A stretch of 64,000 nucleotides of DNA from Glycomyces algeriensis. GTDB taxonomy: Bacteria; Actinomycetota; Actinomycetes; Mycobacteriales; Micromonosporaceae. Location: assembly GCF_027622855.1 (NCBI RefSeq), contig NZ_JAPZVR010000017.1, positions 1 to 64,000 of the forward strand, given 5' to 3'. The first letter of the stretch is position 1. The number at the start of each line of letters is the position of its first letter. Shown one piece after another: positions 3,831 through 63,514 of the stretch. The position numbers and the translations under genes were made by a program. The notes under the pieces are model-generated. The model worked only from the letters and a program-made list of their open reading frames with translations. It had not been told where the DNA came from and did no database searches.

Positions 3831-4403
3831 CTATGCCTTGCGGAAGTATTCGCGGGCCGGCCGCAGCGCCAGCAGGACCACGCCGAGGACGCAGCCGGCG
3901 GTGACCACCGCGAAGCGGACCCCTTCGAGGGCCGGGAGCCAGTCCGGATACGCGGCGAACGCGGCGTCGAGGATCGCGGCGGCGTCGAGTGACCGCACGG
4001 TCGCATCCCCGGAGGCGTCGAAGAGGGCCTGCACCTTGGCGGCGGCGGTCGCGTTGCTGGCCATGATGAGCGCGTTCCCGGCGAGCACGAGCGGCAGGAC
4101 GATGAACGAGACGAGGCGCCCGATGCGCTTGCCCGCCAAGAGGATCACACCGACCAGCGCGATGGCGGCGGCGATGGCGAACGGGGCCCAGATCGCGACG
4201 CCGTGCTCGTCGAACGCGAGCCCGTTGGCCGCCAGCAGGGCCGGGTCCTGGCCCTGCCGGGCGGTCTCGGCCTCGGCCGCGGCCTGGACGTCGGCGCCGT
4301 AGAGCAGCCCGATGACCGGGATCGAGGCGAACGCGAGGGCGATCGCGAAGTGGAGCAGCGCGGCAATGGTGACGGCGGTGGGGCGGATGCGCTCGGCGGA
4401 CAT
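3831..4403 (-). CDS. Putative four-helix membrane protein
   Basis: A 190-aa protein with about four hydrophobic segments: residues 10-32, 73-92, 98-118 and 158-180. A 45-residue polar loop lies between the first two. The start is at ATG 4403 (MSAERIRP), with the purine-rich AACGAAGGAGA just upstream on the minus strand. It lies downstream of, and co-directional with, the adhesin-like protein and the two-component genes, with a gap of about 196 bp. I do not recognise a family. The topology suggests a small integral inner-membrane protein, and its function is unknown. Confidence 0.7.
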   Translation of the reverse strand: MSAERIRPTAVTIAALLHFAIALAFASIPVIGLLYGADVQAAAEAETARQGQDPALLAANGLAFDEHGVAIWAPFAIAAAIALVGVILLAGKRIGRLVSFIVLPLVLAGNALIMASNATAAAKVQALFDASGDATVRSLDAAAILDAAFAAYPDWLPALEGVRFAVVTAGCVLGVVLLALRPAREYFRKA

Positions 4404-4599
4404 GGGAGTCTCCTTCGTTCGAGGGGTCTGCGGTCCGGGCCGTTCGTTCTCCGGGCCCGTGCCAGAACCTTCGCCGCCAACGCTGACGCCGTACTGACAG
4501 GCCGCTGACGAGCGTGAAGGTCGTTGTGCCGCTGAGCCTCTGGAGACGCCGCCGTCCGCGACCGGGAATCGGTCGCGGACGGCGGAAGAAGGATCGGGG

Positions 4600-12343: not shown

Positions 12344-12388
12344 GGTCGGGTTGACAGGATTTGAACCTGCGACCCCCTCGTCCCGAAC
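12344..12388. repeat. attL, 45-bp copy of the tRNA-Pro 3' half
   Basis: Forty-five bases identical to 24761-24805. The copy runs from just past the tRNA discriminator base into the anticodon loop and then diverges (tatcgg instead of gaggtg), so no tRNA is made here. Confidence 0.95.
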
Positions 12389-18525: not shown

Positions 18526-19329
18526 ATGAACATCGCACTGGGACCGGTCATGTCGATCAAAGACCCCATCTACCTGGGCCGGTCGGCTTCGAACGAGGCC
18601 GTCAACGTCACCATGTACGGCAAGAACATGATGCTCAACGGCGAACCCGGTTCGGGCAAGTCGGGGCTGATGAACAACATGATCGCGCAGGTCTCACTGA
18701 TGCCGGACGCGCGAATGCTCGGCTTCGACGCCAAGTTGGTCGAGCTGATGCCCTGGGCCGATGTCATGGACGTGTTCGTGGGCCCGGAAATGCGCAAGGC
18801 GCTCCAGACGATGCTGTGGATCCAGAAGCTCATGGACCGCCGCTACGACTGGATGTCGCGCAACCGGATCCGCAAGCTCGTCCCGTCGCCGGCCGAACCG
18901 GCGTGGGTGCTCTTCCTCGATGAGGTCGCGTACTACACCTCGGTCGCGGGAACCAAGGTCGAGCAGGAGCTGTTCTCCGCGCTCTTCCGTGACGTGGTTG
19001 CCCGGGGACGTGCAGCGGCGATCATCCCGATCATGGGCACGCAGCGTGCCTCGTTCGACATCCTGCCGACCGCACTGCGGGACCTGTTCGCCTACCGGTG
19101 GACCGGCCGCGCGACTACGCCCGGCTCCTCGGATGTCGCCCTCGGGGCCGGTTGGGCCGAGGCGGGCTACAACGCCATGAGCCTGGACCCCAAGAAGCCC
19201 GGGGACTCCTTCCTCCTCGCCGAGGGCAATGCGCCGCAACGGATGCGGGCGGCCTGGATGACCGACGAAGAGATTCAGACTGTCGCGGCCTTCGCTGCGC
19301 AGCTTCGGGGCCACAGGGCCTCTGCCTAG
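18526..19329 (+). CDS. FtsK/SpoIIIE-type DNA translocase (short TraB-like ATPase)
   Basis: A 267-aa ATPase. Walker A is GEPGSGKS (residues 39-46) and Walker B is WVLFLDEVAYY (near 127-137); an RGRAAAIIPIMGTQRAS sensor-like segment and the FAYRWTG region follow. These are FtsK/SpoIIIE/TraB motifs. It lacks the N-terminal membrane region and a clear C-terminal gamma winged helix, so it is only the motor. In actinomycete elements such hexameric motors move double-stranded DNA between mycelial cells. The ATG at 18526 has AAGGAG upstream. The preceding membrane protein is the likely partner. Confidence 0.87.
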   Translation: MNIALGPVMSIKDPIYLGRSASNEAVNVTMYGKNMMLNGEPGSGKSGLMNNMIAQVSLMPDARMLGFDAKLVELMPWADVMDVFVGPEMRKALQTMLWIQKLMDRRYDWMSRNRIRKLVPSPAEPAWVLFLDEVAYYTSVAGTKVEQELFSALFRDVVARGRAAAIIPIMGTQRASFDILPTALRDLFAYRWTGRATTPGSSDVALGAGWAEAGYNAMSLDPKKPGDSFLLAEGNAPQRMRAAWMTDEEIQTVAAFAAQLRGHRASA

Positions 19330-19332
19330 AGC

Positions 19333-19379
19333 GAGTGCCGTCAGCGCCAACCAATGTCAACGAGCAGTTGACGGCACTC
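19333..19379 (+). other. Intercistronic hairpin 3
   Basis: A perfect 11-bp stem, gagtgccgtca/tgacggcactc, with a 25-nt loop. It starts 4 nt after the translocase stop and is followed directly by the first tRNA-like stem-loop. Confidence 0.7.
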
Positions 19380-19381
19380 CA

Positions 19382-19420
19382 GGGCGAACGGTTCACCCGG
19401 GGTTCGATTCCCCGGCGTCC
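19382..19420 (+). ncRNA. tRNA-top-half-like stem-loop 1
   Basis: Outer stem gggcg/cgtcc (19382-19386 with 19416-19420, one G-U pair), a 10-nt bulge, inner stem ccgggg/ccccgg, and the T-loop-like heptaloop ttcgatt. It resembles an acceptor/T-arm minihelix. No D arm or anticodon arm forms a normal tRNA upstream. It aligns with the copy at 19748-19787. Confidence 0.5.
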
Positions 19421-19511
19421 ACGACGCAAGGAATTCCCAGCACCAATCGCACACGGGCTAGTACTGCGTCCTGCTGATGAGGCATTGAGAACAAAGGAAA
19501 GAGGGCAAGAA

Positions 19512-19727
19512 ATGAAGCACCTCAAAGTGACGCACGACGGTGAGGACAAGAACGTCAATCACTACGTCACCACTGACGAGAACGCCGCAGCCGTCATTGC
19601 GGACTTCAAGGAAGGCGACATGATCGCCATCGACAACCACACCTTCCGGGGTGACGAAACGGTCAAGGACTCGACCACGCTCATCCGGGTGCACCGGATT
19701 GTGGAAATCGAGATCAAGAACAGGTAA
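19512..19727 (+). CDS. Small hypothetical protein
   Basis: A 71-aa protein (MKHLKVTHDGEDKNVNHYVT to VEIEIKNR). The ATG at 19512 has AGGAAAGAGG upstream. It is acidic, probably beta-rich, and has no membrane segment. It sits between the two tRNA-like stem-loops, and its stop codon lies inside the following hairpin. Family not recognised. Confidence 0.65.
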   Translation: MKHLKVTHDGEDKNVNHYVTTDENAAAVIADFKEGDMIAIDNHTFRGDETVKDSTTLIRVHRIVEIEIKNR

Positions 19728-19742
19728 GCCGTAGCGGCTTAC
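19724..19742 (+). other. Short hairpin containing a stop codon
   Basis: A perfect 8-bp stem, gtaagccg/cggcttac, with a 3-nt loop. The TAA stop of the 71-aa gene is inside its left arm. It is followed by the second tRNA-like element rather than a T-tract. Confidence 0.6.
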
Positions 19743-19747
19743 TGGTA

Positions 19748-19787
19748 GAGCGATCGGCAATCTTCGGGGTTCGAGGCCCCGACGCTC
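19748..19787 (+). ncRNA. tRNA-top-half-like stem-loop 2
   Basis: Outer stem gagcg/cgctc, an 11-nt bulge, inner stem tcgggg/ccccga and heptaloop ttcgagg. It matches copy 1 in layout. Outer pair 2 is A-T instead of G-C, outer pair 3 is G-C instead of G-U, and the first inner pair is T-A instead of C-G. Pairing is therefore kept despite base changes. The upstream ctggtagagc resembles a tRNA D-arm, but the anticodon arm is absent. Confidence 0.5.
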
Positions 19788-19830
19788 ACGCAGCAATAAC
19801 CACGAATGACACAGAGAGGAGGAGTGTGCA

Positions 19831-20190
19831 TTGTTCCGGACCGAATTCGATGACCCTGAAGGCATCCGCCACGGCGGATTGCCGACGTTCAACTACCGCT
19901 GCGCGCCGGTCGGACTGTACACCCGCCGACAACTCGCCGCTGAAGGTCTTACGCCTGGGCGGCAACCCATCGCAGGCCAGATCTTCTGGCGTCGCGGTAA
20001 CCGAGTCGCCTACCTCTATAGGCGTGACCTGGCCGTGCCCAAGCGCCCGGCTACCGACGCCCAACTGCGGGCCCTGATGAAAGCGTGGGTCGCTCTGTCG
20101 ACCTGCCCGTCATGCCAGACGGAATACGGCTACTACATCCCCAAGCGCTACGGCGAATGCCTCGCCTGCTTCGAAGGCGGCACGCGATGA
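19831..20190 (+). CDS. RRQRL-motif zinc-binding protein
   Basis: A 119-aa protein from a TTG start at 19831, which has GAGAGGAGG eight bases upstream; no ATG or GTG fits the frame. It has the TRRQLAAEGLTPGRQPIAGQ segment of the RRQRL-motif family and a C-terminal zinc ribbon with CPSC (CPSCQTEYGYY) and CLAC. It is common in actinomycete elements, and its function is not established. Its stop overlaps the next ATG by 4 bp, the first of a chain of coupled genes. Confidence 0.8.
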   Translation: MFRTEFDDPEGIRHGGLPTFNYRCAPVGLYTRRQLAAEGLTPGRQPIAGQIFWRRGNRVAYLYRRDLAVPKRPATDAQLRALMKAWVALSTCPSCQTEYGYYIPKRYGECLACFEGGTR

Positions 20191-20504
20191 CCGATCTCCT
20201 CGCCGCGTTCGCCATCTTCCGCGAAGCGATGCCACTGCATCGCGTCAAGCAGATCGACTCGCTTCCCCCGTGGGAGCCCGATCTTTCCCGCATGCGGTTC
20301 CTCTGCGTCATCTGCGACGTGCACATGACCGGAACCCAACTCGCCGACGACGACCGGCACCTCCTCGTATCCCTGCCCTTCGAGGGCTGGGAAATGCGGG
20401 CGTGCGAGGTCTGCGGCGAAGAGACCGTGCCAACGGTCGAGCACTCCAAGAAATGCGACTACTGCACCGGCGTGCAGTGGCAGAAGTCAAGGAGCCAGAA
20501 ATGA
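20187..20504 (+). CDS. Small zinc-ribbon protein
   Basis: A 105-aa protein with three CxxC pairs: CVIC (FLCVICDVH), CEVC (ACEVCGEE) and CDYC (KCDYCTG), a probable zinc ribbon. The ATG at 20187 lies in the 4-bp ATGA overlap with the RRQRL gene, and its own stop overlaps the following DUF2637 gene the same way. It is soluble, with no membrane segment. Its function is unknown; translation coupling suggests stoichiometric action with its neighbours. Confidence 0.7.
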   Translation: MTDLLAAFAIFREAMPLHRVKQIDSLPPWEPDLSRMRFLCVICDVHMTGTQLADDDRHLLVSLPFEGWEMRACEVCGEETVPTVEHSKKCDYCTGVQWQKSRSQK

Positions 20505-21052
20505 AACTCGAAGACGGCGTGCAAACCGTCATCATGCTGTCCATGGGTGTGGCCGCTGGCGCGGTCTCCTTCACCCACGTCCACGACGCCACCGTCGCGG
20601 CCGGTCAACCCTCCTGGGTCGGCTGGGTCAACGCGGTGACCATCGAACTGATGGTGATCGCCCTCGGTCTCGAGGTGCGACGCCGCCGCCGCAACGGCGG
20701 CCACAAGGTCAAGTCCGTGATGGCGATGATGATGTTCTTCATCGCTCTCTCGCTTGGGGCCCAAGTCCTCGACGCCGAACCGACCGTTGTCGGCTGGCTC
20801 GCCGCTTCGGCCTCGGCCCTGGGGTTCTTGACCTTGGTCAAGGTCGTGCTCTCGCGGCCCGCTGAGGCACAACCGGCCGAATCGCCGGTGGCCTCATTTG
20901 CGGAACCGGATTGGACGGAGTCGGCCCCGGTCGCCTCCTCGGATCCGATCGACGTTCCGAGCCTCCAAGCCGAGCGCTCTGCCGTCACCGCTGAGCCTGC
21001 TCAGCCGGACTGGGCCAACGCCTTCGCCAACCTCGGCAACGGGGACCGGTGA
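20501..21052 (+). CDS. DUF2637 domain membrane protein
   Basis: A 183-aa protein with four hydrophobic segments: residues 8-26, 40-58, 72-90 and 95-113. The SFTHVHDATVAAGQPSWVGW part between the first two is typical of DUF2637 proteins of actinomycete conjugative elements. The C-terminal 70 residues are Pro/Ala/Glu-rich and probably disordered in the cytosol. The start and stop overlap the neighbouring genes by 4 bp each (ATGA and GTGA). A role in intramycelial spread or as a membrane adaptor of transfer is possible but unproven. Confidence 0.82.
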   Translation: MKLEDGVQTVIMLSMGVAAGAVSFTHVHDATVAAGQPSWVGWVNAVTIELMVIALGLEVRRRRRNGGHKVKSVMAMMMFFIALSLGAQVLDAEPTVVGWLAASASALGFLTLVKVVLSRPAEAQPAESPVASFAEPDWTESAPVASSDPIDVPSLQAERSAVTAEPAQPDWANAFANLGNGDR

Positions 21053-21417: not shown

Positions 21418-21741
21418 ATGACAACTCAGGAGCCTGTCCTGGCTTACCACTGGCGAAAGCTCATCTTCGGTGACCTCACCGGGCAGCCGTCCGAATGCCA
21501 GTTCCCCGAACCGATCGAACCGCCGCGACTCGGCGACGAAGTGTTCTACAAGGTCTACAAGTGCGCTGAGTGCGGCATGGTCCTCCACATCAATGGCGGC
21601 GACCTCGACCAACGCCACACCCTCGACATCATCTTGGTGGTCTGTGGCCACTGCTCCCATCCCGAGATCGTTCGAGATCTCTCCTACCCCGAGTACCTCT
21701 GCCGTTGCTTCGGCTGGGTCTACCTCGACGACGAGGACTAA
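21418..21741 (+). CDS. Small cysteine-rich hypothetical protein
   Basis: A 107-aa soluble protein with CAEC (YKCAECGMVLH) and CGHC (VVCGHCSHPE) pairs, which could bind one zinc, and a C-terminal LCRCFGWVYLDDED. The ATG at 21418 has GAAAGGCG upstream. It is flanked by long-loop hairpins on both sides and precedes the replication initiator gene. Family not recognised. Confidence 0.68.
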   Translation: MTTQEPVLAYHWRKLIFGDLTGQPSECQFPEPIEPPRLGDEVFYKVYKCAECGMVLHINGGDLDQRHTLDIILVVCGHCSHPEIVRDLSYPEYLCRCFGWVYLDDED

Positions 21742-21746
21742 CCAAC

Positions 21747-21794
21747 GCCCTGCCCCGGCCGCTCCTGATTACGCACGAGCCGCCCGGGCAGGGC
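21747..21794 (+). other. Intercistronic hairpin 5
   Basis: A 12-bp stem with one mismatch (21747-21758 and 21783-21794) and a 24-nt loop. It starts 6 nt after a stop codon, just upstream of the rep ribosome binding site. Confidence 0.65.
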
Positions 21795-21830
21795 CCCAAT
21801 ACGACTGCCCGCATCTGGAAGGAGGACACC

Positions 21831-23246
21831 ATGGCTACAGACACCATTCCGCCCGGCTTCGCCGCCGACATCATCGCCCGATCCGAGTCGACCGGTTGGG
21901 AACCGTGGCTCTCACACGTCGCCGGTGCCGCCGGATGCTCCAACCCGGTGCGCCTTCGCGGTGAAATTAACGCCGTTAATGAGACCACCGGGCAAGTCCT
22001 CTCCGCCCGGTCCACCGCCTCCATGCCCGACGGCATCATCTACAAGGCCTGTGGCACTCGTCGCGCCTCCCTCTGCCCCACCTGCGCCAAGACCTACCAG
22101 CACGACGCGTTCCATCTCGTGCGCTCCGGCATGACCGGCGGCAAAGGCGTCCCCACCTCTGTCAGCGCTCACCCGGCCCTGTTCGTCACCCTCACAGCCC
22201 CCGCCTTCGGCCCGGTCCACACGCGGACCCTCACCGCCTCGGGCAAGGTCCGACCCTGCCGCGCGCGTCGTGACGCCGAAACCTGCCCCCACGGCGTCCG
22301 CCTGGCCTGCCACACCCGACATGACGAAAGCGCCGGCCAAATCGGCCAGCCGCTGTGCCTGGACTGCTACGACCATGACGCCCAAGTCGTCTGGAACGTC
22401 GCCTCCGGCGAACTGTGGCGGCGGACCCGCATCAACATCGACCGCGGATTGTCGCGCCTCGCCAAGGCCCACGGCATTGACCCGGCCTCGGTGCGGCTGC
22501 GCTACGTCAAGGTCGCGGAGTTCCAGCGGCGCGGTGCCGTTCACTTCCATGCGCTCATCCGCCTCGACGGCCGCGTGCCCGGTAGTGATGCGATCCTGCC
22601 GCCGCCTGCTGCCCTCGACGCCGAGGCCATCGCTGCCATCGTCGCCGATGCCGCCGCCTCGACCCGCTTCCGCACCGAGGAACACGATGAGCGCCTTGAA
22701 GGCTGGCTTATCCGCTGGGGCGCGCAAGTCGATGTCCGCCAGGTCGAACTCGGCGACGACGAGTTGAGCGAGAACCATGCGGCGGGCTACCTCGCCAAGT
22801 ACGCCACCAAAGCCACCGAGGACACCGGCCACCTGTCCGGCCGCCTCACCGAGGCCACCGTCTCCGTCTATGCCGATCCTGAAGGCAACCACATCGCCCG
22901 CCTCATCGCCGCGTGCTGGCGTCTCGGTTCCGAAGGCGGGGAATGGATCAGGCTCCGCAAGTGGGCGCACATGCTCGGCTTTGGCGGCCACTTCATGACC
23001 AAAGCGCGCGCCTGGTCGACCACCTTCGGCGCCCTCAGAGATGCACGCGCGCAATGGATTCGCTGTCAACACGAGGTTGACACCGATCCGACTGAAACGG
23101 TCGTGCTCGTCAACTACCTCCGCTATGACGGCACCGGCTGGCACACCGAGGCTGACGCCCTTATGGCGTCCTCCGCTGCCGCTCGTGCCCGGGAGCAACG
23201 GCAGCTTGCCCGTGAAGCTCTGGATGAACTCGCCACTATGGATTGA
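21831..23246 (+). CDS. RepSA-like replication initiator (HUH endonuclease type)
   Basis: A 471-aa protein. The N-terminal part has a zinc-like cysteine cluster (CGTRRASLCPTCAK) and PALFVTLTAPAFGPVH. The HUH motif is VHFHALIRLDG, near residue 238, and a candidate catalytic tyrosine lies in AGYLAKYATK, near 322. This is the RepSA/plasmid replication initiator layout, which nicks one strand for rolling-circle replication of the excised element. The ATG at 21831 follows a perfect GGAGG. The excisionase and integrase genes follow directly, as in pSAM2. Confidence 0.9.
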   Translation: MATDTIPPGFAADIIARSESTGWEPWLSHVAGAAGCSNPVRLRGEINAVNETTGQVLSARSTASMPDGIIYKACGTRRASLCPTCAKTYQHDAFHLVRSGMTGGKGVPTSVSAHPALFVTLTAPAFGPVHTRTLTASGKVRPCRARRDAETCPHGVRLACHTRHDESAGQIGQPLCLDCYDHDAQVVWNVASGELWRRTRINIDRGLSRLAKAHGIDPASVRLRYVKVAEFQRRGAVHFHALIRLDGRVPGSDAILPPPAALDAEAIAAIVADAAASTRFRTEEHDERLEGWLIRWGAQVDVRQVELGDDELSENHAAGYLAKYATKATEDTGHLSGRLTEATVSVYADPEGNHIARLIAACWRLGSEGGEWIRLRKWAHMLGFGGHFMTKARAWSTTFGALRDARAQWIRCQHEVDTDPTETVVLVNYLRYDGTGWHTEADALMASSAAARAREQRQLAREALDELATMD

Positions 23247-23260
23247 TTGGATTGATTGCG

Positions 23261-23473
23261 ATGGAAGGAAGCACGGTACTCAAACCGCGTTGGTACGACA
23301 CCAGGCAGACTGCCGAGGTCCTCGGCTTCGGCGTCTCGAAGGTCAAGATGCTCATCGCCTCCGGCGAGCTGCGCTCGGTCAAGGTCGGCGGCCACCGCCG
23401 TGTCCTGCCCGAATGGATCGAGGAATACGTCGAGCGCTTCGCCCGCCAGGACGACTATGTGGGGGCGGCATGA
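23261..23473 (+). CDS. xis: Excisionase (MerR-like helix-turn-helix)
   Basis: A 70-aa protein with a MerR/excisionase-type winged helix: DTRQTAEVLGFGVSKVKMLI followed by KVGGHRRVLPEWIEEYV. ATG 23261 is preferred over a TTG at 23243 that overlaps the rep stop. It ends in a 4-bp ATGA overlap with the integrase gene. Small proteins of this class direct the integrase toward excision. A tandem gattgattg repeat lies in front of it. Confidence 0.88.
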   Translation: MEGSTVLKPRWYDTRQTAEVLGFGVSKVKMLIASGELRSVKVGGHRRVLPEWIEEYVERFARQDDYVGAA

Positions 23474-24678
23474 GCAAGCGGGGCAACGGGGAAGGCTCGA
23501 TCTACCCGCATGGCAACGGTTACGCCGCCTACGTGTGGGTCACGACCCCTGCGGGTGTGAAGAAACGGAAGTACGTCTACGGTCCGACCCGTGAAGCGGT
23601 CCACGGCAAGTGGCTCGATCTCCACCAGGCCGCCGCGCGCGGTGCTGTCGAGACCAAGTCCAAAACCGTCGAGCAGTACTTGCACGCCTGGCTCGCAGAG
23701 GTCATCAGGCCCAACCGGGAACCGAAGACCTACGACGGGTACGAGCGGTTCATTCGGCTGCACATCGTGCCGTGGCTCGGGAAGAAGAAGCTCGATCGGT
23801 TGTCGGCGCGGGATATCCAGCAGTGGGCGAACAAGCTCGCGACGGTGTGTCAGTGCTGCCAACAGGGCGTCGATGAGCTGCGGACGCCGCACAAGTGCTG
23901 CGCGAAGGGCACGTGCTGTCGAAAGGTGTTGTCCGCCAGGTCGATCAGTGATGCCCGGACGGTGCTGCGCTCGGCGCTGTCGCAGGCGGTCACTGATGAG
24001 TTGGTGTCGGTGAACCGGGCAATGCAGATTCGTCTGCCCAGTGGGCGCAAGCGGCGCAAGAAGTCGTGGGGCACCGATGAGGCGCGGCGGTTCCTCGAAC
24101 ACGTGCGGCCTGATCCGCACTATGCGGCGTACCTGCTGGTGCTCGCGATGGGATTGCGCAAGGGCGAAGTCCTCGGCTTGACCTGGGACAGCCTCGACCT
24201 GGACGAGGGCGTTCTTGAGCCGCAGTGGCAGCTCCAGAGGGTCATGGGCGAACTGATCCACAAGAGGAAGGCCAAAACCGAGGAGTCCGAGAACGCCCTG
24301 CCGATGCCTGATCTGTGCGTCAAGGCGCTGCGGGAGCGTCGGGAGCGGCAGCTTCGGGACCGGGCGAAGGCCGATGTCTGGCATGACTCGGATCTGGTCT
24401 TCACCACTCGGTACGGGACGGCGATCGAGCCGCGCAACTTTCACCGGTACTTCGTCAACCATCTCGAGGCAGCCGGCCTCCCCCGGATCTCGGTGCACGA
24501 CGCCCGGCGGACCTGTAGCTCGCTGCTCGTGGATCTCGACGTTCACCCTCGGGTGATCATGGCGATCATGCGGCACTCGGACTTCAAGATGACCATGGAG
24601 GTCTACGCGCAGGCCTCCGACAAGGCCACCAGGGAGGCGCTGCGGAAGCTGAGCGAGAGTTTTGAGTCCGAGGACTAG
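23470..24678 (+). CDS. int: Tyrosine site-specific integrase
   Basis: A 402-aa tyrosine recombinase. The N-terminal AP2-like arm-binding domain (residues 1-60, GSIYPHGNGYAAYVW) is followed by a SAM-like core-binding domain (about 65-190). The catalytic domain has Arg in GLRKGEVLGL near 230, HDARRT near 343, RHSD, and the nucleophile in MEVYAQ near 378. The core-binding domain carries an unusual Cys-rich insertion (CQCCQQ, HKCCAKGTCCRK). It is next to attR in tRNA-Pro, the normal place for an enzyme that recombines the 45-bp core. Confidence 0.95.
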   Translation: MSKRGNGEGSIYPHGNGYAAYVWVTTPAGVKKRKYVYGPTREAVHGKWLDLHQAAARGAVETKSKTVEQYLHAWLAEVIRPNREPKTYDGYERFIRLHIVPWLGKKKLDRLSARDIQQWANKLATVCQCCQQGVDELRTPHKCCAKGTCCRKVLSARSISDARTVLRSALSQAVTDELVSVNRAMQIRLPSGRKRRKKSWGTDEARRFLEHVRPDPHYAAYLLVLAMGLRKGEVLGLTWDSLDLDEGVLEPQWQLQRVMGELIHKRKAKTEESENALPMPDLCVKALRERRERQLRDRAKADVWHDSDLVFTTRYGTAIEPRNFHRYFVNHLEAAGLPRISVHDARRTCSSLLVDLDVHPRVIMAIMRHSDFKMTMEVYAQASDKATREALRKLSESFESED

Positions 24679-24760: not shown

Positions 24761-24805
24761 GGTCGGGTTGACAGGATTTGAACCTGCGACCCCCTCGTCC
24801 CGAAC
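24761..24805. repeat. attR, 45-bp copy in tRNA-Pro
   Basis: Identical to 12344-12388. It spans the tRNA 3' end through the anticodon loop, so the element restored the tRNA on integration. Confidence 0.95.
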
Positions 24806-24836
24806 GAGGTGCGCTACCAAGCTGCGCCACAACCCG
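24763..24836 (-). tRNA. tRNA-Pro(CGG)
   Basis: A 74-nt tRNA. The acceptor stem is CGGGTTG/CAACCCG with discriminator A. The D arm includes GCGCAGCTTGGTAGCGC. The anticodon loop TTCGGGA has anticodon CGG at 24800-24802. The T arm is GCAGGTTCAAATCCTGT. CC follows the discriminator, but a full CCA is not encoded. The 3' half comes from the integrated element. Confidence 0.95.
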
Positions 24837-24897: not shown

Positions 24898-25068
24898 GAC
24901 CCCCGGCGAGCGGGGGCGGGGGCGGGGGGGGGGCCGGGCCCCCGGGGGGGCCGGCGCGCCGCGGGGGGGGCGCGGCGGGGGCGACCGGAGGGCCGGGGCG
25001 GCCCCCCCCGGGGGGGGGGGGGGGGGGGGGGGGCGGGCCCCCCCCCCCCCCCCCCCCCCCCCCGCGCC
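24898..25068. other. Poly-G/poly-C low-complexity stretch, probable assembly artefact
   Basis: About 170 bases are almost pure G/C runs, ending in an uninterrupted run of about 24 G (25010-25033) and about 26 C (25038-25063). The block lies exactly between the tRNA-Pro 5' side and the stop of the metallophosphoesterase. Such palindromic homopolymers are typical of poly-G sequencing or assembly errors; the real sequence here is unknown. Confidence 0.8.
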
Positions 25069-25071
25069 TCG

Positions 25072-29958: not shown

Positions 29959-30003
29959 GGCCTCAGGGTTCGCAGGGCGCTCAAGCCGCCTAGGTCGCGG
30001 CGC

Positions 30004-63441: not shown

Positions 63442-63514
63442 GCCCCCATCGTCTAGCGGCCTAGGACGCCGCCCTTTCAAGGCGGTAGCACGGGTTCGAA
63501 TCCCGTTGGGGGTA
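63442..63514 (+). tRNA. tRNA-Glu(TTC)
   Basis: A 73-nt cloverleaf: acceptor GCCCCCA/TGGGGGT, anticodon loop CTTTCAA with anticodon TTC, T arm CGGGTTCGAATCCCG, discriminator A, no encoded CCA. Confidence 0.96.

Follow-up and report, generated by a model that had tools for sequence, protein, structure and literature searches.

Mini-tRNA-like RNA elements between the genes of an actinomycete integrative element and of phages: candidate sites of mRNA cutting by tRNA-processing enzymes

In animal mitochondria, polycistronic transcripts are punctuated by tRNAs. The elements described here are likewise tRNA-shaped RNAs between genes, for which cutting by tRNA-processing enzymes is proposed; they differ in being ∼40 nt long and without an anticodon arm (bar a few three-arm variants), and cutting is in their case a prediction. 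The mascRNA/menRNA family (Rfam RF01684), a eukaryotic long noncoding RNA, joins an acceptor stem and a T-arm to a reduced D side, as our elements do. Viral tRNA-like structures are best known from RNA virus genomes, and the yjdF riboswitch family is included in Rfam.

The yjdF riboswitch resembles our elements as a tRNA-like cis element of a bacterial mRNA leader with a contact between D-loop and T-loop at the elbow, as passages of PMC9142559 describe it, but it is a ligand-binding four-helix junction, and the stretches that we scanned gave no yjdF match above the Rfam gathering threshold. Parts of PMC4810234 describe viral tRNA mimicry that recruits host tRNA-binding molecules, whereas the elements here are serial and intergenic and belong to DNA phages and an integrative element. 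The stoperators of Cluster A mycobacteriophages are also repeated, mainly intergenic and in one orientation, but they are 13-bp asymmetric DNA repressor sites (both according to portions of PMC3029335). Mimicry of tRNA is already known; searches of the open-access literature gave no account of a form that is 40 nt long, recurs serially and marks gene boundaries of DNA phages and integrative elements.

The carrier element and its two copies

The window, a 64-kb stretch of Glycomyces algeriensis DNA, contains two copies of the element, both between the genes of a carrier of ∼12.4 kb that is bounded by a perfect 23-bp direct repeat (12347–12369 and 24764–24786, + strand; an exact match, with 0 expected). 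The left repeat is the att core, and the right repeat lies inside a tRNA-Pro gene (24761–24836, − strand). Because it encodes, all on the + strand, an FtsK/SpoIIIE-like transfer ATPase upstream of copy 1 (18526–19329; Pfam PF01580, E 1.6e-10), a DUF2637 protein in the same gene run (20501–21052; PF10935, E 6.1e-7), a pSAM2-type RepSA replication initiator (21672–23246; PF20199, E 4.1e-147) and a tyrosine integrase (23461–24678; PF00589, E 1.7e-17), the carrier is a pSAM2-type actinomycete integrative element; the last two coordinate pairs are frame extents with approximate start codons. All the hallmarks of that type are present: RepSA-type Rep, FtsK-like ATPase, tyrosine integrase and tRNA att repeats. 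Two small + strand genes accompany the copies, one between them (19512–19727, no Pfam family above cut-off) and one downstream of copy 2 (19831–20190, no Pfam family, conserved in three sister elements). Beside the carrier's right end, at 24902–25070, is a long G and C homopolymer stretch that looks like a sequencing or assembly artefact.

Copy 1 (19382–19420, +) reads GGGCG / AACGGTTCAC / CCGGGG / TTCGATT / CCCCGG / CGTCC, that is, an outer stem (19382–19386 with 19416–19420), a bulge of class AACGGTT (19387–19396), a T-stem (19397–19402 with 19410–19415) and a T-loop TTCGATT (19403–19409). Copy 2 (19748–19787, +) reads GAGCG / ATCGGCAATCT / TCGGGG / TTCGAGG / CCCCGA / CGCTC, with its outer stem at 19748–19752 and 19783–19787, a bulge of class GGCAnNC at 19753–19763, a T-stem at 19764–19769 and 19777–19782, and a T-loop of type TTCGAGN' at 19770–19776; covariation within its class points to a pseudoknot of one U-G and one C-G pair between 19761–19762 and 19775–19776. 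A sequence-only reading had described two stem-loops with a 5-bp outer stem, a bulge of 10 or 11 nt, a 6-bp inner stem and a heptaloop beginning TTCGA, and the sequence bears this out exactly, together with the pair changes listed there: outer pair 2 from G-C to A-T, outer pair 3 from G-U to G-C, and inner pair 1 from C-G to T-A. The two are nonetheless not one diverged pair, since they belong to different bulge classes.

Alone, copy 1 folds as claimed with ordinary energy (z −0.73), and copy 2 has a minimum-free-energy fold other than the claimed one (z −1.16); the evidence for the structure is therefore comparative, not thermodynamic. A strong hairpin is predicted between the FtsK-like gene and copy 1 (19333–19379, +), and the stretch 19330–19425 as a whole folds with z −3.03; hairpins like that at 19333–19379 were not generally seen among phage copies. 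Directly 3′ of copy 1 lies a predicted hairpin (GACGCA ... TGCGTC; 19423–19470, +) at the position of the second hairpin of phage copies. The predicted hairpin GGTAAGCC...GGCTTACT (19723–19743, +) overlaps the last part of the 19512 gene and lies a short way upstream of copy 2; downstream of this copy, folding found no convincing hairpin.

Under a strict descriptor (TTC-R-A loop, inner stem of at least 6 bp, outer stem of at least 5 bp, (C/T)GG in the bulge), copies 1 and 2 are the sole matches in the window, and 100 dinucleotide shuffles gave none. A looser descriptor adds two matches, a chance site at 29959 and one at 63474 inside a tRNA-Glu gene (shuffles of the window: mean 0.10, maximum 2). 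Three elements of the same genus (in loci L003, L004 and L005) hold 2, 3 and 3 copies beside a homologous FtsK-like gene, all intergenic, and orthologues of copy 1 occur in all three loci. The 19512 gene is kept in L003 and replaced or multiplied in L004 and L005; compared with these loci, window 19329–19831 is a region where RNA elements persist while small genes turn over in cassette-like fashion. Matches were found in 4 of 22 genomes of the genus, our own included. The FtsK-like gene was rejected as the carrier of elements, 26 of 30 FtsK loci having a best match of only E 0.1 to R1, the covariance model built from the ten copies of the own and three same-genus elements; in a T-arm scan of the 30 loci, elements appeared at the remaining four, one being the own locus and three of the same genus.

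An RNA family with several bulge classes

Judged by sequence comparison, both copies belong to a wider RNA family of ∼40 nt with a 5-bp outer stem, a bulge, a 6-bp T-stem and a T-loop. R1 finds copy 2 with E 1.7e-13 (copy 2 being in the model), and the model R3 finds copies 1 and 2 in the own genome with E 1.1e-7 and 2.2e-8 (both being in the model). R2, a model of the copy 2 class (class A), gives copy 1 only 20.8 bits (E 0.12). The core of copy 1 from bulge to loop recurs, but for two bulge bases, in an element of mycobacteriophage Cuke that has a different but paired outer stem, and the L005 orthologue of copy 1 has a core identical to that of the Cuke element.

Pairing is kept while bases change. 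Among 18 gap-free rows the covariation score is 0.690 (shuffles, 0.178; slid partners, no higher than 0.167), and 10 of 13 pairs change on both sides; the L072, L073 and L076 rows and some of those from L090, L092 and L096 were found by R1, which favours pairing, and the L107 and L110 rows came from a pattern fixing neither outer stem nor pseudoknot. For 37 rows of all classes the score is 0.763 (0.170 in shuffles, 0.177 with slid partners). The proposal that the copies are an acceptor/T-arm minihelix selected as a nucleic-acid structure is thus supported well beyond two copies: covariation is far above both controls, and the further copies that were sought turned up in sister elements, genomes of the family and phages.

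Larger numbers come from the looser descriptor, which demands both stems and a GG in a bulge of 8–14 nt, so that stem pairing in its matches is no independent evidence. Among the matches listed there are 493 distinct sequences, of which 252 are of the copy 2 class, 112 combine GGTT with TTCGATT as copy 1 does, 63 combine GGTCG with TTCGACT, and 66 fit none of these. Removed before this count were the window sites 29959 (chance) and 63474 (tRNA-Glu), loci L052, L061, L089 and L091 (tRNA or chance matches), rows with 3′ gaps, and repeats. The bulge measures 10–11 nt in 466 of the 493 listed, within the span of 8–14 that the descriptor allows, and contains (C/T)GG in 434, GG and the T-loop being required. 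The bulge and the T-loop vary less than the stems do.

One contact belongs to the copy 2 class. In all 252 class A sequences among the matches listed, the last base of the T-loop is paired with a base of the bulge (AU 189, GC 34, CG 19, UA 5, UG 3, GU 2), part of the 189 AU cases having been selected because one fetching pattern fixed A and T at the pseudoknot. Outside the loci first fetched by that pattern the pair is present in 62 of 62 class A sequences, 24 of them with a pair other than A-U, and it is intact in all 18 gap-free rows. With a looser definition of class A it is found in 259 of 260 sequences among the matches listed, where the neighbouring column pairs in 37%. When all classes are pooled, the bulge-to-loop pairs are broken in 9 and 11 of 36 distinct rows, and copy 1 is without the contact, so it is the property of one class. 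Different classes can be neighbours: one IMG/VR phage contig (L086 1696–2000) has two bulge classes within ∼300 nt.

The common form has a continuous helix of 11 bp (5+6), versus the 12 bp (7+5) of tRNA, and thus differs from the 12-bp acceptor/T helix of RNase P and RNase Z substrates; nor is there a cloverleaf with an anticodon arm. It agrees with RNase Z substrates in that, as a rule, no CCA is encoded after the discriminator: a CC at that place, as in an encoded CCA, occurs in 23 of the 493 sequences among the matches listed and is absent in 470, and 322 of the 493 listed have R-C directly 3′ of the outer stem, a full R-C-C being rare. The sequence-only reading had the copies lacking both D and anticodon arms. 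The second part stands for the common form, and the first is only partly right, as the bulge carries a D-loop-like GG. By eye, three-arm variants with an acceptor stem, a T-arm and an inserted middle arm occur in Cuke (L164 9474–9596 and 6027–6225) and MrMiyagi (L165 4242–4363 and 8412–8531), the middle arm lying where tRNA has its anticodon arm.

ARAGORN and Rfam recognise no tRNA or other family at the window copies. Against the 4227 families of Rfam 15 the window gave three tRNAs above gathering, none at the copies; 19 loci gave one tRNA and one hammerhead, neither at copies, and 9 further loci nothing above gathering. A permissive threshold returned sub-gathering matches only, the best structured neighbour of copy 1 being mascRNA-menRNA (RF01684; 16.1 bits against a gathering value of 42.5, E 3.5). 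Neither ARAGORN nor Rfam called a tRNA at the copies in L072–L076, nor ARAGORN at those in the regions of eight phages; in viral loci, 12 of 713 descriptor matches among those listed overlapped tRNAs called by ARAGORN and were excluded. Of 48 host tRNA matches, 30 yielded 42 predictions (some repeated), none resembling the copies by eye. The match in L077 (R1, 35.7 bits) was rejected as a family member, being by eye a tRNA remnant, and was excluded from later models.

Distribution and position at gene boundaries

Relatives occur in phages of Streptomyces, Mycobacterium, Gordonia and Arthrobacter, in a haloarchaeal virus, and in contigs binned as Bacteroidota and Planctomycetota. Genome counts are lower bounds, because strict filters apply whenever more than 40 genomes are searched. 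Among 354 genomes of the family, R1 found matches in at least 10, including the own genome and L077, and R3 in at least 12, the own included; five other genomes new with R1 have different stems and keep the (C/T)GGCAG bulge and T-loop. Another search gave at least 2 of 396 genomes (own included), and one of a Bacteroidota class at least 1 of 247, the copies in the Bacteroidota bin L102, two in number and each between small genes, not being re-found at its threshold. In a genome of that class (G942, L485), a 227-aa frame ends at 1497, the element follows ∼6 nt on, and the next ATG lies ∼30 nt behind it. Pattern and model together added IMG/VR contigs, a Kribbella sindirgiensis prophage, a Planctomycetaceae bin and a Rikenellaceae bin; 7 of 19 viral pattern stretches (L078, L083, L086, L088, L090, L092, L096) and 6 of 14 genome pattern stretches (L100, L102, L106, L107, L108, L110) were kept, the others being false matches. 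Metagenome bins are among the Planctomycetota and Bacteroidota records, whose host assignment rests on the classification of others. An array in Actinocatenispora rupis (NZ_BOMB01000029; L143 6638–9821) packs 12 elements into 3.2 kb among very small genes, and three of the elements come in succession without an intervening gene.

Among the matches listed, at least 701 elements lie outside ARAGORN tRNAs, in 271 of 292 pattern-selected viral loci (122 with two or more); in the other 21 no descriptor match outside tRNAs was listed. A blastn search with one 42-nt element (E ≤ 1) hit 184 phage records, most as sequence matches only; by organism name, 113 are Streptomyces, 28 Mycobacterium, 19 Halorubrum and 10 Gordonia phages. 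In a plasmid search, a single 43-nt query had no record matching over 80% of its length. By model or descriptor, regions of Endor1, Joe, Danzina, Werner, Konstantine, Send513, Cuke, MrMiyagi, Trax (model only, 30.7 bits), Morgana, Pitbull and Halorubrum tailed phage 8 (two elements) contain the element, and the annotation tables of these twelve records have no RNA feature there. The descriptor found no element in phiC31, whose early terminators were reportedly the subject of a 1995 NAR paper.

Regions of eight annotated phages contain 99 same-strand gaps of at least 75 nt; the descriptor finds an element in 62 of these and none in the other 37. Of the 25 gaps measuring 20–74 nt, 0 have one. 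The stop codon lies a median of 9 nt before the outer stem (6–18 nt in 50 of 62), and the next start a median of 45 nt after its end (33–58 nt in 59 of 62). A second hairpin usually follows on the 3′ side (mean z −2.03; below −1 in 46 of 62 and above 1 in none), its first paired base 1–5 nt after the element in 59 of 62. By manual count, 14 of 18 tails in Cuke and MrMiyagi have a hairpin of at least 7 consecutive pairs, typically after ACGA, whose sequence varies by copy. For 565 distinct viral copies among the matches listed, mean z is −1.44 for the downstream 36 nt and −0.75 for the upstream 36 nt, so the upstream side also folds somewhat better than shuffles.

Searched on both strands, the complete genome of Endor1 has 9 matches, all intergenic, and that of Cuke 10, of which 8 are intergenic; 30 shuffles of each genome gave a mean of 0.03. 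All 19 are on the strand of the adjoining genes and in one part of each genome, Endor1 1–35999 and Cuke 1–28499 and 42001–68869 having no descriptor match. One Endor1 copy (L157 12560–12600) precedes the first gene of its run, in the leader. The two remaining Cuke elements (L164 3937–3976 and 4220–4259) overlap annotated genes (3930–4211 and 4162–4494), close behind annotated starts or ends of neighbouring genes; because the element falls within the annotated gene, the two start codons are probably misplaced. With one in Pitbull, three phage copies are inside annotated genes in all.

The Kribbella sindirgiensis prophage, which carries mini-tRNA elements, also has a Type II hammerhead ribozyme (L107 6634–6717, − strand, equal to L144 11578–11661; 38.6 bits, gathering 37); the preceding stop codon is 11 nt away and the following start 14 nt. 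This is a single case, and an Rfam scan of nine other element-bearing loci found no ribozyme.

Possible functions

The reading that we tentatively prefer, giving it slightly less than an even chance, is that host tRNA-processing enzymes cut polycistronic mRNA at the elements. The enzymes, the cut and the stabilisation in this paragraph are what we infer. The ∼40-nt cis-acting RNA would copy the top half of a pre-tRNA, with an acceptor-like stem, a T-arm and a bulge whose GG, to judge from its company with a T-loop, may take the place of the D-loop G18-G19 that docks in the T-loop. Within the gene runs of phages and integrative elements, the RNA typically comes immediately after a stop codon, with the ribosome-binding site of the next gene still to follow. 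There, RNase Z would cut on the 3′ side, and RNase P possibly on the 5′ side, both reading acceptor, T-arm and elbow. The mini-tRNA would then remain on the upstream message as its compact 3′ end, ∼9 nt after the stop codon, and the new 5′ end of the downstream message would lie a few nt ahead of the second hairpin and be shielded by it; structures at 5′ ends can block 5′-end-dependent decay. Recognition of the tRNA elbow by RNase P, RNase Z and the CCA-adding enzyme is described in parts of PMC4810234, and 5′ roadblocks are mentioned in a passage of PMC3997798.

Several points count against cutting. The 11-bp helix may shift or weaken RNase P cleavage, R-C-C is rare, the bulge-to-loop contact is not universal and is absent from copy 1, copy 2 has no convincing downstream hairpin, and three Actinocatenispora elements follow each other directly; moreover, 37 of 99 long gaps are empty, some copies are inside genes, the upstream side folds too, and phiC31 is without an element. 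The Endor1 copy in a first-gene leader also speaks against it, there being no upstream message to separate. A point in favour of cutting is the Kribbella hammerhead, a single case in the same kind of slot: a hammerhead ribozyme cleaves itself.

The nearly constant distance to start codons and the Endor1 leader copy would suit the main rival, that the elements are translation enhancers of the downstream gene. This is rather unlikely, in our estimate, although tRNAs upstream of a Shine-Dalgarno sequence raised in vitro translation 2- to 6.3-fold and mutation of the D-loop-like GG in a yjdF leader brought translation near background (both according to passages of PMC9142559): enhancement does not predict a separate hairpin 1–5 nt after the element and leaves the tight distance to the preceding stop codon unexplained. 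Cutting and enhancement could both hold. That bulge and T-loop are better conserved than the stems, and that outer-stem sequence tends to be common to the copies of one element (L110, L107), would also fit a site for an RNA-binding protein, of the host or encoded by the element, which regulates or stabilises each message without cutting. Such a protein appears distinctly improbable; the same architecture is found in unrelated Actinomycetota phages, Bacteroidota and Planctomycetota bins and a haloarchaeal virus, and a universal tRNA-binding partner is the simpler choice.

Among the roles considered in the sequence-only reading, RNase P/Z processing and translation control match the two readings placed first here; protein docking during transfer and decayed tRNAs are both disfavoured because the same elements sit between tailed-phage genes. 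Decay of tRNA genes, or of the tRNA 3′ fragments that integrases with tRNA att sites leave behind, has some appeal: the att cores of tRNAs contain the T-arm and the 3′ acceptor half, the carrier integrates in tRNA-Pro, and L077 does look like a tRNA remnant. When this origin was checked, however, the copies were not recognised as tRNA genes and none of the 42 host tRNA predictions resembled them by eye; the att core is elsewhere in the carrier, the outer stem and the bulge-to-loop pairs are kept by compensatory change, and decay predicts loss of pairing in unselected relatives, the opposite of what was found. We regard it as close to negligible. An element acting as DNA (a repressor operator, a single-strand transfer signal or the end of a recombination cassette) is very improbable too, if marginally less so. 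Two of the three sister elements have different small genes between copies, as cassettes would, and stoperators, which are repressor-bound, share the intergenic and one-directional placement (portions of PMC3029335); against this, what is conserved is an RNA-like tertiary fold, G-U pairs and T-loop included, rather than a linear site, and all 19 matches in two whole phage genomes are on the strand of the adjoining genes.

Returning to cutting by tRNA-processing enzymes, we put forward, with more reserve still, a general gene-boundary system of mobile DNA, in which serial mini-tRNA elbows and 5′-protecting hairpins would let host tRNA maturation enzymes cut messages into single-gene units in phages of Actinomycetota, in phage-like contigs binned as Bacteroidota or Planctomycetota, in a haloarchaeal virus and in integrative elements. 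The elements aid phage annotation, as with the two Cuke starts. If they are translation enhancers, they would be a natural, portable translation element of 40 nt; either way, they would offer a minimal natural system for asking which tRNA parts processing enzymes need. If they are cut, phages would exploit the tRNA maturation of the host to fix the stoichiometry of single-gene messages and their stability, and the tRNA punctuation of mitochondria would have a counterpart in bacteria and archaeal viruses.
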